Shown: positions 46,603 through 54,466 of the stretch, in pieces | How the letters are laid out: every line of letters begins with the position of its first letter | How positions within the stretch are numbered: the first letter of the stretch is position 1 | Assembly (NCBI RefSeq): GCF_005406125.1 | Contig: NZ_BIXZ01000001.1 | Coordinates: 310,001-374,000 of the forward strand | Reading direction: 5' to 3' | Source: Haloarcula mannanilytica | Lineage (GTDB): Archaea > Halobacteriota > Halobacteria > Halobacteriales > Haloarculaceae | DNA: 64,000 nucleotides | The notes under the pieces: generated by a model | The model's database searches: none | Told to the model about the DNA's origin: nothing | Seen by the model: the letters and a program-made list of their open reading frames with translations, nothing else | Made by a program: the position numbers and the translations under genes

Positions 46603-47643
46603 TCAGCCGAAAATCAGTTCCACGTCCATCGCCCGCGCCAGCAGGTCGTCGTGGTAGTACTCCTCGGTCTGTGCGGGGTGGGTCTCGTCGATGGCCCGCA
46701 CCGTTTTGACGGTGTTGGCGAAGTTCTTGTACGTCGCCTCGTCGACCATCTGACCGTCGACGACAACCGCGCCGGTCCCCTCCCGTTTGGCTTCGTTGAA
46801 CGACTCGATTTTGTGGAGGTCCCGTTCCAGTTCCTCGGTTGTCGGCATGTGGATGCGGTTGGCCTGCGTGGTCTGTTTTGGGTGCAGCGACCACGAGCCG
46901 TCGATACCGATAGTCGCCTCGTGTTCGACCTGGTCGGCGTACCCCTCGGCGTTGTAGTAGGTGACCCCGGCCCGTTCGTGGAACAACTGGTCGAAGGGGC
47001 CGCCGATAGACACGATGTCGGCCGCGCTCGTCTCGTTCGAGAGGGCTTCGAGCAGGCCGTCCCAGCGGGGCCGCTCGCCGTTGAGCGCGCGGCCACCGAG
47101 TTCCGCCGTGTAGTCCACCGGCCCGAAGACGAGCGCTGAGAGGCGCGAACCAGCCGCGAACTGACAGATCTCACGGAGGTCAGAGCGGCCCGGCGCGGTC
47201 TCCAGAATAATCGCCATATCCAGCGCCCCCTCGGAAAGCCCCGCGTCCCGTTCGGCGTCGGCGATGACGCCCGCAGCGTCGCGCACGTCCTCAAGGCGGC
47301 CAACTTTCGGGAAGACGAAGCCATCCAGTTCCTGGCCGACCTCCTCAGCCAGGCGCGTCACCTGCTCGATGCCGCGCTCGCGGGCGTCGGCGTCGTCGTA
47401 GGCCCACTCGACCCGCGGGAGAATCTCCCCGGCGAAGTCGTCGGCATGGTCGGGGACGTGCTCGACGATGTTGTCGACGGCTTCGGCTTTCATCGACGGC
47501 GCGGTGCCGTCCTCGATGTCGGGGACGAGCCAGTCCGGGGTCTGGAACCCCTCGCTGGTGAGCCCCGAGACGAGGAATTTCGCGCTGTTGTCGTTCGGTA
47601 TCGCGGCCGGTGCGGTCTGGAAGGTGCGACAGAGTCGTGTCAT
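46603..47643 (-). CDS. Beta-methylmalyl-CoA lyase (CitE/HpcH family)
   Basis: A 346-residue lyase of the HpcH/HpaI-CitE family. MTRLCRTFQTAPAAIPND and VPDIEDGTAPSMK form the start of the barrel, FVFPKVGRLEDV and IILETAPGRSDL hold acidic metal ligands, and LVFGPVDYTAELGG and WSLHPKQTTQANRI close it. In the methylaspartate cycle it splits beta-methylmalyl-CoA into propionyl-CoA and glyoxylate. It is the last gene of the five-gene operon and overlaps mch by four bases. Activity on malyl-CoA or citramalyl-CoA as well cannot be excluded. Confidence 0.9.
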   Translation of the reverse strand: MTRLCRTFQTAPAAIPNDNSAKFLVSGLTSEGFQTPDWLVPDIEDGTAPSMKAEAVDNIVEHVPDHADDFAGEILPRVEWAYDDADARERGIEQVTRLAEEVGQELDGFVFPKVGRLEDVRDAAGVIADAERDAGLSEGALDMAIILETAPGRSDLREICQFAAGSRLSALVFGPVDYTAELGGRALNGERPRWDGLLEALSNETSAADIVSIGGPFDQLFHERAGVTYYNAEGYADQVEHEATIGIDGSWSLHPKQTTQANRIHMPTTEELERDLHKIESFNEAKREGTGAVVVDGQMVDEATYKNFANTVKTVRAIDETHPAQTEEYYHDDLLARAMDVELIFG

Positions 47644-48722
47644 GTGTTTCGCTGAATGAGTGCGGTTCGCCGGCCCGAGTAGACCGGGGTCTGGTCCTGG
47701 TTGAACGCGACGTGTTCGAACGTGACCGCGCCGGCTCGCTCCGGTCCGGCGTTGGAGTCACAGTCGAGGACACGGGTGAACCCATAAATGGTGTCGCCGA
47801 GCGTGACGAAGTCGTGGAACCGCTCGTTGGCGAAACGACGCTCGCGGTAGGTCGCCTCGTCCGAGCGGGCGTGGGCGAGTGCAACCGACCGGGTCACGTC
47901 GCCGTAGGCGACGATGTCGCCCGAGGGCGAGTCGTCCATCTCGTCGCGGTTGTGGTGCTGGCGAGCGGTGTTGAGCGTCGCCAGCGGGAGTCCCGCGACC
48001 AGTTGGTCGTCCATCGTCCGCCCGCGTTCGTGGCGGTAGGCGACGGCAGCGTTCTCCTCGTCGGCGCGTTCGAGTGCCGTCTGGAAGTCCTCGAAGTGTT
48101 TGCCGTCGGGCGTCAGGAGCGTGTCCGGTAGCGTCGGACCGCCTGCGTCCTGCTCGCCGACCGCGCCGCCGCTGCCGTCGGTCGCTGCTGGCTCCCGGCG
48201 CGGAATCATATTCGTCCGCTGGTAGGAGACCAGCGTCTCCCCGGTCTCGCGGTCCCGACCCTCCGTCTCCCAGGTGACGATGCCGTATTTCGGCCGGGAC
48301 GATGAGGTACGCGTGTCGACCACCGTCGAGGTAACCGATAGCGGCGTCCCCGCCGTCGCAGGCCGGTGAAAGCGCACGTCGTCCCGGCCGAGGAAGTACC
48401 CGCCCTTCTCCGAAAGATCCTCGACGGTGATGCCCATGACGCAGGCCAGCAGATAGTCCGGGTGGACCGGACGCTCCTCGAAGCCCCGCTCCCGGGCTGT
48501 ATCAGCCCGCCAGTACGCCGGGTCGTGGTTGAGTGTCTGCCCCATCCACTGCTCGCTGCCGTGCTGGGAGAGAGACAGGCCGGGGTCGTGGTCGAGTTCG
48601 TCGCCCTCCGCGAAGAACTCGAAGAAGTGGCCCTTCTCGCGGGTCTCGGCCCGGTCCAGCAGGGAATCGAACGTCTCGGCGTCCGAGAGGTCCAGCGCGT
48701 CGGGGTCGGTCCAGTCAGTCAT
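47640..48722 (-). CDS. mch: Mesaconyl-CoA hydratase (MaoC-fold)
   Basis: A 360-residue double hot-dog protein. MTDWTDPDALDLSDAETFDS starts it, HPDYLLACVMGITVEDLSEK and DDVRFHRPATAGTPLSV lie in the first domain, and YGDVTRSVALAHARSDEATY with FVTLGDTIYGFTRVLD in the second. It adds water to mesaconyl-CoA to give beta-methylmalyl-CoA. ATG 48722 starts at the conserved sequence and overlaps the end of mal by eight bases. A Gly/Ala-rich linker of about 20 residues separates the domains. Confidence 0.92.
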   Translation of the reverse strand: MTDWTDPDALDLSDAETFDSLLDRAETREKGHFFEFFAEGDELDHDPGLSLSQHGSEQWMGQTLNHDPAYWRADTARERGFEERPVHPDYLLACVMGITVEDLSEKGGYFLGRDDVRFHRPATAGTPLSVTSTVVDTRTSSSRPKYGIVTWETEGRDRETGETLVSYQRTNMIPRREPAATDGSGGAVGEQDAGGPTLPDTLLTPDGKHFEDFQTALERADEENAAVAYRHERGRTMDDQLVAGLPLATLNTARQHHNRDEMDDSPSGDIVAYGDVTRSVALAHARSDEATYRERRFANERFHDFVTLGDTIYGFTRVLDCDSNAGPERAGAVTFEHVAFNQDQTPVYSGRRTALIQRNT

Positions 48723-49983
48723 CGGCCGGCACCTCCCGGGCGGCGTCTCGTCTGGCGAGCGCCCGCCGCATCTCGTTGGTGACGACCATGAAGCCCTCGT
48801 CGAAGCCCATCCCGGGCTTTGCCAGCACCTGAGCGGCGTCGGTCGCCAGCGCCACGTGGGCACAGGCCCGGGCCGAGGTCACGGTCTCGTTGCACGTCCC
48901 GCCGACGTAGGCGCGAGTGTCCGTGCCGTCGCAGTACAGCACGGCTTCGGCCGACCGTTGGATGCCGCCCAGATCCGGCGTCTTTATCTGGACCAGGTCG
49001 GCGGCTTCCGCGTCGACGAACGCCTGCACGTCCGCGAAGGTGTTGCACCACTCGTCGGCGACGATATCCACGTCGACACCGGCGTCGGCAAGCCCCTCGC
49101 GGAGTTCGGCCATCTCGGCTATCTGTGCTTCGCGGCCGCCGGCGTCCATCGGCCCCTCGACCTGCAGAGGGTACGGCGCGGCGGCCTCTCGCAGGGTCTC
49201 GAAGTAGTCGGTCACCTCGGTCCTGTCGTACGGGGGGCCGAACACCTTCCCGAGGATGCCGTACACGTCGACGTGGAAGCGCGGCGAGTACGGTTCCGGC
49301 CCCAGCGCCGTCGCTCGGTCGGAAAGCCAGGCGAGGTAGTCGCGCAAGCCCTCGCCGTTCTCGCCGACCTTCTCGACGCTGTTGAACAGGCCGTGTGGGA
49401 GGACTGGCACACCCTTAATCAGCATCTTCTCGGCATTGATGCGGCGCTCGTCGCCGGACTGTCCGAACACTGGGACTGGCGAGGTCGCCGGTTCGGTGTC
49501 GTAGGTGTCTGCGAGCACGTCCGTCGGCGTCACGCCGCGTGCTCGTGCGGCGGCATTGAGAAGCGCCTGCGAAACGCCGTAGCGGACCGCGGTGTGGAGT
49601 TGCTCACCGCCCGAGCGCTGTGGGTCCATCTCCTCCAGCATCGTGGCGTTGGCTCCGAACTGGGTCGCGTCCTGCCCGCGGAGCGCGTCGGCGACGGGAC
49701 CCTCGACGACGGGGCGGTACTTCTCGGCCCGGAACAGCGGGTCGCGACCGCCAGCGCCGGAGTACTGCACCGCGGCGCAGTCGCCGGTCGCGATAGAGCC
49801 GTCGGCGAGTTCGATTTCCACAATGAGCGCCTCGCCGGCCTCGCGGATGCGGTCGAACCCCTCCGTGACCGGCTGGCCGTCGTAGGCGAACCCGCTCTGA
49901 GTCGCGCCGTCCTTGATGGCCTGCTGGTCGTCGAAGAAGAATCCGGAGAGGCCTGGAACTGTCCGAACGTCCTCAATCCGCAT
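48715..49983 (-). CDS. mal: 3-methylaspartate ammonia-lyase
   Basis: A 422-residue enolase-superfamily enzyme removing ammonia from 3-methylaspartate to give mesaconate. MRIEDVRTVPGLSGFFFDDQ begins the capping domain. In the barrel, LQVEGPMDAGGRE and DIVADEWCNTFADV supply metal-binding acids, and the base lysine is in QIKTPDLGGIQRS, followed by the signature AYVGGTCNETV. Start 49983 overlaps the glmE stop by 11 bases. All expected catalytic residues are present. Confidence 0.95.
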   Translation of the reverse strand: MRIEDVRTVPGLSGFFFDDQQAIKDGATQSGFAYDGQPVTEGFDRIREAGEALIVEIELADGSIATGDCAAVQYSGAGGRDPLFRAEKYRPVVEGPVADALRGQDATQFGANATMLEEMDPQRSGGEQLHTAVRYGVSQALLNAAARARGVTPTDVLADTYDTEPATSPVPVFGQSGDERRINAEKMLIKGVPVLPHGLFNSVEKVGENGEGLRDYLAWLSDRATALGPEPYSPRFHVDVYGILGKVFGPPYDRTEVTDYFETLREAAAPYPLQVEGPMDAGGREAQIAEMAELREGLADAGVDVDIVADEWCNTFADVQAFVDAEAADLVQIKTPDLGGIQRSAEAVLYCDGTDTRAYVGGTCNETVTSARACAHVALATDAAQVLAKPGMGFDEGFMVVTNEMRRALARRDAAREVPADD

Positions 49984-51436
49984 CGCTCGCACCTCCTGCG
50001 GGGCCGTTGTCGCCCGTTGGACGCCCGATGAGCTTCCCGTCGCTGATGGCGTCCACGTCGTCGGCGACCATTCGGAACGACTGGTCGCGGCCCTCAGTTT
50101 CGGCCCGTTCGCCGAGCCGCGCGGCGTGAATTTCTTTGATGTCGTCCGGCAGCGCGAGGTCCGCAAACTCGAAGATGCGAACTCGGCCGTCGTCGTCTCT
50201 GGCCGGCAGCACTGCGCCCTTGGCGGCGTCACTCGGTGCGAACGGCACGTCCAGCGCGCCGCTGTCGAAGGCGTTGATGACCCCCTGTGCCACGTCGCCG
50301 TCGCCGGCCTCGTAGATGGCGTCCATCAGCGCCCGAGTCTCGCGTTCGATGAGCGCCTGTTCCTCTTCGATACCCCCGAGGTCGATGTCCTGTTCGATCA
50401 TCATATCGATGAGCTGTCTCGTGGTCCGCAGTCCGGCCGCGTTGGCCTCCTTCGTCGGCACGCCCTGGAACTCCTGGGCGGACTTCGTGATGACTTTGTC
50501 CGGCTGTGCGACGGCCGCCGTCGCGCCGCCGAGACTGATGACGCCGTTGGCGCGGGCCTCGTCGGGCGGGAACCCGCCCATCCACTCGTGGAAGACGGTC
50601 GTGACCGTCACCTCGTCGCGGAGGTACTCGTTGCCGAGCTTCCGCAGCGCGCGTAGCGCCGCCACGTCCTGTACGAGATTGCCGACCTGTCCGTAGCCCA
50701 GCGTGAGCGAGCGAACGCCCTGCGTGGCGGCAAGCTCGCCCTCGACGAGCATCACCGCGATAGCGATGCTCGGCGGGACGAGGGTGCCGGTCAGCGGACC
50801 GAACGGTTCGCGGTTGATAGTCACGCCGCGCTCGGTGTAGGCCCCACAAAGCCGGTCGACGAACTGCCAGTGTTCGATGGTCGTCGCCAGGTCGTGGCGT
50901 TTCGTGTACGGGATGTTGTAGGAAATCGGGCCGCCCTCGAAACTCTGGAAGCCACCGGCGAGCGTGACCATCGCCAGAAGCCGGGCGTCGGGCGTGCCGT
51001 GGCGAACCTCGACCGGGGCATCTAGCGCCCGGATGAGCCGTCGGCAGTCCTCAACGCCGTGGTTGACTGCGGGGAAGCCGTTCAGTTCGTTCTCGTCGCT
51101 ACCGCGGGAGGCCGCCAATCCCTCCTCGGCCTTCTCGTACTCGTTGTCGCGCGTGTACGAGTCGATGGTCGTCGGCAGGAGGTCAGCACCGCCCTCGTCC
51201 TGTAGATACCGCAGGAGGTCGATCTGCTCTTCGAGGCAGGGAACGCCCGCCCGTGGCTGGAGGAGCGGCTGGTCGGCCGACTCAAGCACCGTGGCGAACT
51301 GCTTTGAAGCCGGCAGCGACTCGTGGAAGGCGATGGCCTCCTCGAAGTCGACTTCCCGGCCCGTGTGCCAGTTGTCCCTGAGGTCGTTTGCGATGCGCTG
51401 TAGCTGGTCGTCGCTGAGTCGTTCGTCTGTTGGCAT
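49973..51436 (-). CDS. glmE: Glutamate mutase epsilon (large) subunit
   Basis: A 487-residue TIM-barrel catalytic subunit. With GlmS and adenosylcobalamin it rearranges glutamate to 3-methylaspartate. Conserved pieces are LQPRAGVPCLEEQIDLL, LPTTIDSYTRDNEYEKAEEG, GFPAVNHGVEDCRRL, RHGTPDARLLAMVTLAGGFQ and TLGYGQVGNLVQDVAALRAL. ATG 51436 is chosen; the in-frame GTG at 51442 would overlap the glmS stop as GTGA. The C-terminal 20 residues are Gly/Asp-rich. Confidence 0.95.
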   Translation of the reverse strand: MPTDERLSDDQLQRIANDLRDNWHTGREVDFEEAIAFHESLPASKQFATVLESADQPLLQPRAGVPCLEEQIDLLRYLQDEGGADLLPTTIDSYTRDNEYEKAEEGLAASRGSDENELNGFPAVNHGVEDCRRLIRALDAPVEVRHGTPDARLLAMVTLAGGFQSFEGGPISYNIPYTKRHDLATTIEHWQFVDRLCGAYTERGVTINREPFGPLTGTLVPPSIAIAVMLVEGELAATQGVRSLTLGYGQVGNLVQDVAALRALRKLGNEYLRDEVTVTTVFHEWMGGFPPDEARANGVISLGGATAAVAQPDKVITKSAQEFQGVPTKEANAAGLRTTRQLIDMMIEQDIDLGGIEEEQALIERETRALMDAIYEAGDGDVAQGVINAFDSGALDVPFAPSDAAKGAVLPARDDDGRVRIFEFADLALPDDIKEIHAARLGERAETEGRDQSFRMVADDVDAISDGKLIGRPTGDNGPAGGASDAD

Positions 51437-51438
51437 GG

Positions 51439-51879
51439 TCACCCGTCGACCCGTATCTGCTCCGCCTCTGTGGTCGTCAACTGCAGGTCTTCACGGAGCA
51501 TCTCGATTGCCTCCTCCGGGTCCGTCTCCGCGTCGAAGACGCGGTCGAAGCCCATCTGTCGGAAGGTCGCTTGCGTCTCCTCGAAGTCGGACTGTCCGAC
51601 GGCGAGGTTCCCGCCGACGTAGGTGAGCACGTCGAGCCCGGCGGCGTCGAGTTCGTCGTGCAGCCCCTCGCAGTCCTGGCGGGCGTGCCCGTACAGGGAG
51701 GATACCAGTACCGCCTCGGCGTCGTGAGATTTCGCGGCGCTGACGAACTCGTCCTGAGAGGTCTGGACACCGAGGTTAATTACCTCGAAGCCAGCGGCCG
51801 AGAGCGCCTGCTCTAAAATCGTGATACCGACGACGTGTGCGTCGGAGCCAATCACGCCGAGGATAACGGTCCGGGGCAT
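51439..51879 (-). CDS. glmS: Glutamate mutase sigma (cobalamin-binding) subunit
   Basis: A 146-residue B12-binding protein. VILGVIGSDAHVVGITIL contains the D-x-H-x-x-G motif whose histidine ligates cobalt. VSSLYGHARQDCEGL and YVGGNLAVGQ are the other cofactor loops. It is the first gene of the methylaspartate operon, starting 27 bases from a TATA-like element that mirrors the one of mct. Confidence 0.96.
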   Translation of the reverse strand: MPRTVILGVIGSDAHVVGITILEQALSAAGFEVINLGVQTSQDEFVSAAKSHDAEAVLVSSLYGHARQDCEGLHDELDAAGLDVLTYVGGNLAVGQSDFEETQATFRQMGFDRVFDAETDPEEAIEMLREDLQLTTTEAEQIRVDG

Positions 51880-51903
51880 GTACTACGTCGTGGTCGGCGG
51901 GTG

Positions 51904-51978
51904 GTGATAAACCTAATGGTCTTTCATGATAATATGGCCTTAAAGAATATATAATGAATTATCAGGAAGGTTTATCCC
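51904..51978. promoter_or_regulatory. Mirrored divergent promoter of the methylaspartate genes
   Basis: GATAAACCT (51906-51914) and AGGTTTATC (51968-51976) are exact inverted copies. Read outward, each is a TATA-like box 27 bases from glmS and 25 bases from mct, fitting leaderless starts in both directions. Inside them TGATAAT (51927-51933) and ATTATCA (51958-51964) form a second inverted pair around an AT-rich core. Symmetric half-sites could let one regulator govern both transcripts. Confidence 0.6.
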
Positions 51979-52000
51979 GCCGCCCCGTCGTGGTTTTCCT

Positions 52001-53191
52001 ATGGGTGCGCTTGACGACTTGCGTGTGCTCGACCTGACACAGGTCCTCGCCGGACCGTACTGTACGATGTTGCTCGCGGATATGGGCGCGGACGTGGTAA
52101 AGGTCGAGCGCCCCGGCGGCGACCTCATCCGGTCGAACCCGCCGTTCGTGGCCGACGGCGACGAGGAGGCCTACGGCGGCTACTTCCAGAGCGTTAACCG
52201 GGGGAAGCGGTCGCTCGAACTCGACCTCGGAACCCAGGCGGACCGCGAGGCGTTCCTCTCGCTCGTCGAGCGCGCGGACGTGGTCGTCGAGAACTTCAAG
52301 GCCGGCACGATGGAGAAGTTCGACTGCGGCTACGAGACGCTGCGAGAGCACAACCCAGAGCTCATCTACTCCTCGATCCGGGGCTTTGGCGACCCGCGAA
52401 CGGGTGAGACCCATCGGCAGGGCCAGCCCTCCTTCGACCTCATCGCGCAGGCGCTGGGCGGGGTCATGGAGATCACCGGCCAGCCCAACGGGCCGCCGAC
52501 GAAGGTCGGCCCCGGCGTCGGCGACATCTTCACTGCCGCGCTGAACGCCGTCGGCATCCTCGCGGCCGTGCATCACCGCGAGCGCACAGGCGAGGGCCAG
52601 TACGTCGACACGGCGATGTACGACTCGATGGTGTCGCTCTGTGAGCGGACGGTGTACCAGTACTCCTGTGACGGCGAGTCGCCGACCCGGCAGGGGAACT
52701 CACACCCGACACTGTTCCCGTACGACTCCTTCGAGGCCGCCGACGGCCACGTCGTCATCGCCGCCTTTTCCGACGGCCACTGGGAGGCGCTGTGCGAGGC
52801 GATGGACCGTCCGGACCTGGCCGCGGACTACCCCGACGCCGGCAGTCGCATCGCGAACCGAGAAGCCCTGCGCGGCGAGATAACCGACTGGGCCGCTACG
52901 GTCGATTCCGACACCATTCTCGAACTGCTCGAAGGGCGCGTCCCGGCCGCGCCGGTCCAGAACACCGCCGACATCTTCGACGACCCCCACATCCGCGACC
53001 GGGAGATGCTCGCCGATGTCGACCAGCCCGGAGCCGACGAGCGAATGACCATCGCCGGCAGTCCGATCAAGATGACCGAGACGATGCCCGCGCCGGGGGG
53101 GCGGGCACCGCTCTTGGATGAGCACAGAGCGGAGTTGCTCGACGAGGTTGCGGCCGAGGCCGAGACAAATCGGGTCGAAAGCGACGACTAA
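52001..53191 (+). CDS. mct: Succinyl-CoA:mesaconate CoA-transferase (family III)
   Basis: A 396-residue class III CoA-transferase. LRVLDLTQVLAGPYCTMLLA, DVVKVERPGGD and VNRGKRSLELDL start it. SFDLIAQALGGVM holds the catalytic aspartate, with VGDIFTAALNAVGIL and VPAAPVQNTADIFDDPH later. Family members cannot be assigned a substrate by sequence alone; the divergent methylaspartate operon makes mesaconate the obvious acceptor and succinyl-CoA the donor. The ATG is about 25 bases from its TATA-like box. Confidence 0.92.
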   Translation: MGALDDLRVLDLTQVLAGPYCTMLLADMGADVVKVERPGGDLIRSNPPFVADGDEEAYGGYFQSVNRGKRSLELDLGTQADREAFLSLVERADVVVENFKAGTMEKFDCGYETLREHNPELIYSSIRGFGDPRTGETHRQGQPSFDLIAQALGGVMEITGQPNGPPTKVGPGVGDIFTAALNAVGILAAVHHRERTGEGQYVDTAMYDSMVSLCERTVYQYSCDGESPTRQGNSHPTLFPYDSFEAADGHVVIAAFSDGHWEALCEAMDRPDLAADYPDAGSRIANREALRGEITDWAATVDSDTILELLEGRVPAAPVQNTADIFDDPHIRDREMLADVDQPGADERMTIAGSPIKMTETMPAPGGRAPLLDEHRAELLDEVAAEAETNRVESDD

Positions 53192-53261
53192 CCGGCAACT
53201 GCCGGCAATTTTCACCACATCAGGGCAGGACCATTATCTATCATGAGCCGTACAGTAGGCT

Positions 53262-53905: not shown

Positions 53906-54466
53906 ATGGTCGACCCAAAAGAGAGCATTGACATCGAAAATGTCGTTGCTTCGACCGGTATCGGACAAGAACTCGACCTTGAGAGCGTCGCGATGGACCT
54001 GGAAGGGGCCGACTACGATCCCGAGCAGTTCCCGGGGCTGGTCTATCGGACACAGGACCCCAAGTCCGCTGCGCTCATCTTCCGGTCGGGCAAGATCGTC
54101 TGCACAGGCGCAAAATCAACTGACGATGTCCACCAGAGCCTGCGAATCGTCTTCGACAAGCTCCGTGATCTGAACATCCAGGTCGACGACGACCCCGAAA
54201 TCGTCGTCCAGAACATCGTCAGCTCCGCGGACCTCGGGAGCTCGCTCAACCTCAACGCCATCGCCATCGGCCTCGGCCTCGAAAACATCGAGTACGAGCC
54301 AGAGCAGTTCCCCGGACTTGTCTACCGCCTCGACGAGCCCGACGTGGTCGCGCTGCTGTTCGGTTCGGGGAAGCTCGTCGTCACCGGCGGGAAGCGCAAG
54401 GAAGACGCCGAGGAAGCCGTCGACACAATCGTCGAGCGGCTGAGCGACCTCGGTCTGCTGGACTAA
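53906..54466 (+). CDS. tbp: TATA-box-binding protein
   Basis: A 186-residue general transcription factor made of two direct repeats. The saddle halves are visible as YDPEQFPGLVYRTQDPKSAA with FRSGKIVCTGAK, and YEPEQFPGLVYRLDEPDVVA with FGSGKLVVTGGK. It recognises the promoter together with TFB. The length and acidic surface match haloarchaeal TBPs, and its own upstream region has three TATA-like boxes. Confidence 0.97.
   Translation: MVDPKESIDIENVVASTGIGQELDLESVAMDLEGADYDPEQFPGLVYRTQDPKSAALIFRSGKIVCTGAKSTDDVHQSLRIVFDKLRDLNIQVDDDPEIVVQNIVSSADLGSSLNLNAIAIGLGLENIEYEPEQFPGLVYRLDEPDVVALLFGSGKLVVTGGKRKEDAEEAVDTIVERLSDLGLLD

Follow-up and report, generated by a model that had tools for sequence, protein, structure and literature searches.

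A conserved inverted repeat beside the TATA box as a candidate operator of acetyl-CoA anaplerosis genes in haloarchaea

Archaeal operators that adjoin the core promoter are a familiar arrangement. The archaeal activators Ptr2 (Lrp/AsnC family), GvpE, and Bat bind upstream of the BRE, at a dimeric site abutting it, and their sites differ in sequence from the glmS-side element described below. In Hfx. volcanii, leaderless transcripts (0–5 nt) make up 72% of protein-coding transcripts, and the leaderless core promoter has a TATA box at about −27 with the start codon at, or a few bases from, the expected transcription start (PMC4983044). The TrmB regulon of Har. hispanica resembles the present locus in its inverted-repeat operator near archaeal core promoters and its central carbon genes, and the methylaspartate operon was affected in the deletion mutant; however, the genes of our locus had no TrmB ChIP peak and the authors called the effect indirect (PMC10817205). 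The same paper notes that Har. hispanica lacks promoters characterised by experiment, and a literature search returned no transcription-start data for Haloarcula. GfcR is likewise a haloarchaeal regulator of carbon metabolism, but it activates sugar degradation (PMC11519228), and no link to the element was found. The ace (glyoxylate bypass) operon of Hfx. volcanii serves the alternative acetate anaplerosis with different enzymes, and deletion of aceA abolishes growth on acetate (PMC7746861); the ace operons of relatives carry the element. No regulator or operator of the Hfx. volcanii ace operon was found in the literature searched. Nor did that literature describe how the methylaspartate cycle is controlled at the level of transcription; the single regulator study of relevance terms its effect indirect. 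The searchable literature, outside which most subscription papers lie so that a prior description is possible, held no account of the element, its regulator, or a common control of the two pathways.

The window is a stretch of 64,000 nucleotides of the Haloarcula mannanilytica genome (contig NZ_BIXZ01000001.1, positions 310,001 to 374,000), and all coordinates below refer to it unless a locus is named. Gene starts were taken from the open reading frames. The genes on both sides of the intergenic region passed the cut-offs of curated profiles, so the names that the earlier note had given to glmS and mct were correct:

51439..51879, minus strand: glmS, methylaspartate mutase subunit S (B12-binding), first gene of the operon (TIGR01501 and NF002612, above cut-off)
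49973..51436, minus strand: glmE, methylaspartate mutase subunit E (TIGR01503, above cut-off)
48715..49983, minus strand: mal, methylaspartate ammonia-lyase (TIGR01502, above cut-off)
47640..48722, minus strand: mch, mesaconyl-CoA (2-methylfumaryl-CoA) hydratase (NF041625, above cut-off)
46603..47643, minus strand: malyl-CoA / beta-methylmalyl-CoA lyase, final gene of the overlapping or adjoining run (NF041626, above cut-off)
52001..53191, plus strand: mct, succinyl-CoA:mesaconate CoA-transferase (NF041294, above cut-off)

Each of the two divergent starts is preceded by a TATA box:

51906..51911, minus strand: glmS TATA box TTTATC, within the left 9-mer, first base 32 bases before the ATG; TATAAA/GATAAA conserved
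51971..51976, plus strand: mct TATA box TTTATC, within the right 9-mer, first base 30 bases before the ATG; initial TTT conserved, final bases variable

Both boxes occupy the position expected for a leaderless haloarchaeal core promoter (about −27), and TATA-like hexamers peaked 27–31 bases before the first ATG in 331 genes called, crudely, from 454 kb of the same genome. A CGAAA-type BRE was present on neither side; directly upstream of the TATA box we observed CATTAGG on the glmS side and CAGGAAGG on the mct side. From the spacing of their TATA boxes, both promoters look like ordinary leaderless promoters, and this alone would explain part of the mirror image that the earlier note had reported. 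Compared with the Hfx. volcanii leaderless promoter, the glmS side has a 16-bp candidate operator with an extension instead of CGAAA-type BRE surroundings, and it shares this feature with few genes only.

The mirror image consists of exact inverted 9-mers within the 121-bp gap between glmS and mct, GATAAACCT at 51906–51914 (minus strand) and AGGTTTATC at 51968–51976 (plus strand), which lie 27 bases from the glmS start codon (51879) and 25 bases from the mct start codon (52001). The inner pair reported with them was also confirmed (TGATAAT at 51927–51933 and ATTATCA at 51958–51964), as was a TATA box inside each 9-mer with the spacing usual for leaderless haloarchaeal genes. The centres of the outer pair (51941) and the inner pair (51945.5) differ, so the two pairs do not form one palindrome with a common dyad. 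The sequence AGGTTTATC was rare in the 4.2-Mb genome (8 copies), and the spaced pair occurred once. Of 2000 dinucleotide shuffles of this region, 39 (2%) contained an exact inverted pair of at least 9 bases.

For comparison with relatives, 88 loci with the divergent glmS/mct arrangement were reduced to 75 distinct gaps; some species were present in both collections, and the loci are not all independent. The earlier note had made its reading depend on the conservation of the 9-mers in relatives. The exact 9-mers were not conserved: the outer pair was found in just 1 of the 75 regions, the inner pair in 2, and the right 9-mer alone in 1, whereas the TATA boxes inside the 9-mers were kept. The earlier proposal of one dimer that binds both inverted 9-mers is thus highly improbable. 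It accounts for the exact inverted copies in this genome, but the arms are 53 bases apart, the gap varies from 120–122 bp in Haloarcula and near relatives (121 bp here) to mostly 150–180 bp in other families, and the conserved signal is a separate inverted repeat next to each TATA box:

51914..51929, minus strand: glmS-side candidate operator TCATG-AAAGAC-CATTA, a 16-bp inverted repeat (here TCATGAAAGACCATTA, consensus TMATGATNNATCATKA)
51926..51943, minus strand: distal conserved extension TTAAGGCCATATTATCAT (TTAANGANTATTATCAT in relatives), common to ace promoters, from alignment columns and the comparison of glmS, ace, and GNAT promoters
51952..51967, plus strand: mct-side operator-like site TAATG-AATTAT-CAGGA, distal half conserved, proximal half degenerate

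The glmS-side repeat is located two bases upstream of the TATA box and overlaps the BRE position; on the glmS strand, the sequence of the block is TATTATCATG-AAAGAC-CATTA-GG-TTTATC. The pattern TAATGN6CATKA was present in 71 of the 75 distinct homologous regions. Across these gaps, the columns from 51907 to 51934 were near invariant save a few two-state positions, and the stretch from the TATA box to the start codon varied freely. Between this genome and distant families, the 28-nt block showed 88% identity, the glmS coding sequence 75%, and the leader 42% (best placement). The element was also observed in further loci from five families. In three site sets (glmS1, the gene of the cluster; its paralogue glmS2; and mct) the consensus was palindromic, TMATGATNNATCATKA, with column-permutation p-values of 0.018, 0.0025, and 0.015, respectively, which are indicative because the palindrome frame was picked by eye before the symmetry test. 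The conservation of the inverted repeat exceeded neutral expectation, as an operator should, and, judged by its sequence conservation, the element between the divergent genes is probably an ancient DNA control site.

These results bear on the simplest explanation, that the region holds just two ordinary leaderless core promoters back to back, with no specific regulator, and that the mirror image arises from both TATA boxes lying near −27. The genome-wide concentration of TATA-like hexamers at this distance and the 2% of shuffles with an exact 9-base inverted pair agree with it. However, conservation continues for more than 20 bases past the TATA box, the block occurs almost solely at glmS (and ace) promoters, and it surpasses coding sequence in conservation, so this explanation appears quite improbable.

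In most relatives, the mct side had T[AC]ATG-N6 at a constant spacing from the TATA box; the site was not seen in two genomes (L364 and L374). As the mct module has the same placement relative to its own TATA box, the two modules are roughly mirror-symmetric about 51940.5, and this module pair is the true core of the earlier observation. Similar modules on both sides and a likely common control of the mutase operon and mct are therefore retained from the earlier note, and the exact 9-mer symmetry as a signal is dropped. In one species (L226 1510-1525, G393) the mct-side site was a full palindrome, TAATGGTTTATCATTA, 38 bp from the glmS site. There it was followed by ACTACTTG, which is no longer TATA-like, as if part of the promoter's function had passed to the mct site.

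In our reading, to which we assign a probability of about 0.68, a single dimeric haloarchaeal protein that regulates acetyl-CoA anaplerosis, probably by activation, would use the element as its operator at two divergent leaderless promoters. Both core promoters would carry a regulatory site directly before the TATA box. The putative dimeric regulator would bind the inverted repeat, which abuts the BRE position from upstream and partly covers it, and would help or hinder TFB/TBP at acetyl-CoA anaplerosis promoters, the more probable outcome being TFB/TBP recruitment (activation) under acetate-type conditions. In this lineage its target would be the methylaspartate-cycle operon, and mct would have a weaker copy of the site and glmS2 a further one; in lineages without glmS, the same element precedes the glyoxylate-shunt operon aceA-aceB. 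Activation is favoured because the conserved sequence extends upstream and the glmS side is without a CGAAA-type BRE. Against this reading, no regulator gene was conserved beside the cluster in 80 loci; the weakness of the mct site and the glmS genomes without a match, described below, count against it too.

The opposite direction, an operator whose repressor would keep TFB off the BRE while preferred carbon sources are available, is an unlikely but serious alternative. The proximal half-site overlaps the BRE position, the TrmB-repressed genes of Har. hispanica have motifs over the BRE, and the methylaspartate operon was elevated when trmB was deleted and glucose was absent, an effect that the authors consider possibly indirect (PMC10817205). 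However, the conserved sequence runs far upstream, to 51943, and the missing CGAAA-type BRE at the glmS promoter is what is expected if a factor must help TFB. TrmB itself was rejected as the direct regulator, as the published Har. hispanica ChIP peak table contains no mct or mutase promoter (PMC10817205). A cobalamin riboswitch or other known structured RNA was also rejected; the only Rfam match was a sub-threshold chance match (E 0.29), and the element lies upstream of both predicted starts.

The motif TMATGN6CATTA had exactly 4 copies in the genome. For two of them a TATA box is two bases away; one of these copies precedes glmS1 and the other the stand-alone paralogue glmS2. In a weight-matrix scan of 2.04 of the 4.2 Mb, only glmS2 and glmS1 scored above the reversed-sequence background; the mct site, taken alone, and a site before a methylmalonyl-CoA mutase gene remained within it. 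The composite of operator and TATA box gave about 50 matches in 32 genomes of the genus, compared with 2 for the reversed control, and a glmS start followed 47–51 bases on in 27 of the 28 loci inspected. Another family (51 genomes) gave 26 composite matches, 25 of them with a glmS start 48–53 bases on. The glmS2 sites of relatives include TAATGATGATTCATTA and TAATGGTCTTTCATTA, the latter one base off the reverse complement of the glmS1 site. glmS2 itself (L160 7670-8113; G000:C1:93669-94112) carries the same element, has intact B12-binding motifs, and is retained in relatives; no glmE adjoins it, and the next gene is FMN-reductase-like. The GfcR gene adjoins glmS2 in one family; we rejected this sugar-catabolism activator (PMC11519228) as a candidate, as its gene is not beside glmS2 in the present genome and no other link was found. 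A composite TCATTATAAACCATGA-(2 nt)-TTTAT was observed before a DUF5789 gene in two genus members (L228, L229), and this gene is a possible further target.

The site ACATGGTTCATCATGA (G000:C1:148543-148558, L227) resembles the operator and precedes the genes for the methylmalonyl-CoA mutase small subunit and a MeaB-like protein. Related sites occurred in several genus members; none was conserved outside the genus, though the mutase gene is nearly universal. This site is the basis for a reading of the element as a cobalamin-responsive operator, in which the common property of the targets would be that glmS1, glmS2, and, in the genus, the mutase small-subunit gene encode B12-binding proteins. 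All three proteins have the Pfam B12-binding domain, and the mutase site is shared by this genome (G000) and some genus members. Its lack of conservation elsewhere and the presence of the element at ace operons, which have no need for B12, make a cobalamin response very doubtful.

The ace operons came to light in a search with the conserved block across 392 genomes of the order, which gave matches in 186 genomes against about 7 control matches. The block was matched in 127 of 150 genomes with glmS, compared with 59 of 242 without it (Fisher p 8e-33, kinship ignored); the remaining 23 of the 150 had no match at the stringency used. Family labels of the genome collection are given as f4, f5, f7, and f17. 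In 15 of the 16 loci fetched from glmS-less genomes of families f4 and f5, a gene of the isocitrate lyase superfamily lies downstream, on the side that corresponds to glmS. Most f4 loci have a small first ORF ahead of this gene; in four of these operons (L421, L423, L426, L428) the first gene before aceA encodes a small protein with an 'APLVP' motif, whose L423 copy had no NCBIfam match.

The start of malate synthase AceB was found within the sequence of five of these ace loci, those for which the available sequence reached far enough (NF041315, partial because the sequence was cut). The AceB of L423 matched PDB 3oyx, which we take to be the Hfx. volcanii malate synthase structure, across its whole available length, with 9 differences in 172 residues. 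The structure of the Hfx. volcanii malate synthase is the subject of a published paper (PMC3112382). The isocitrate lyase of the ace loci showed a superfamily match and reached no NCBIfam isocitrate-lyase cut-off; we identify it as AceA because of its AceB neighbour and the known H. volcanii ace operon. Ace and glmS promoters showed similar geometry between element and TATA box and had the extension TTAANGA-TATTATCAT in common. One 16-mer, TCATTATAAATCATTA, of the kind found in the ace sites of family f4, is common to a glmS site (L360) and an ace site (L422) of this family.

The presence of the element before the genes of either pathway suggests that one regulator may control whichever pathway a species has. 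In its widest form, this reading holds that a single regulator and one TATA-joined operator control acetyl-CoA anaplerosis class-wide, and that the operator stays while the pathway differs by lineage; we consider this fairly probable. As expected of an operator, the promoters that carry the element belong to genes of related function (glmS1, glmS2, mct, and the ace operons), with the GNAT gene of family f17 as the exception. What follows the element in six glmS-less f17 genomes (L402-L407) is a short ORF, then a gene for a GNAT acetyltransferase and one resembling prephenate dehydrogenase, rather than ace or glmS. This placement counts against the shared-regulator model, which does not account for the GNAT gene.

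A defined sequence is now available for fishing out the regulator. The model predicts that this regulator also serves the glyoxylate operon of other haloarchaea, among them Haloferax-like species with easy genetics, and the system would be an example of control kept constant while the underlying pathway differs.

Some further features were observed around mct. In Haloarcula japonica (L043; entry L043 and L018), mct matched in two pieces (residues 1–171 and 193–396), possibly from a frameshift or an assembly error. A gene for the TATA-box-binding protein (TBP) lies one gene downstream of mct, at 53906–54466. The sequence CCATTATCTATCATGA at 53231–53246, with 2 mismatches against the operator consensus, is located 16–31 bases before the TRAM-domain gene (53262) downstream of mct; it was identical in close relatives, as was much of the flanking sequence.
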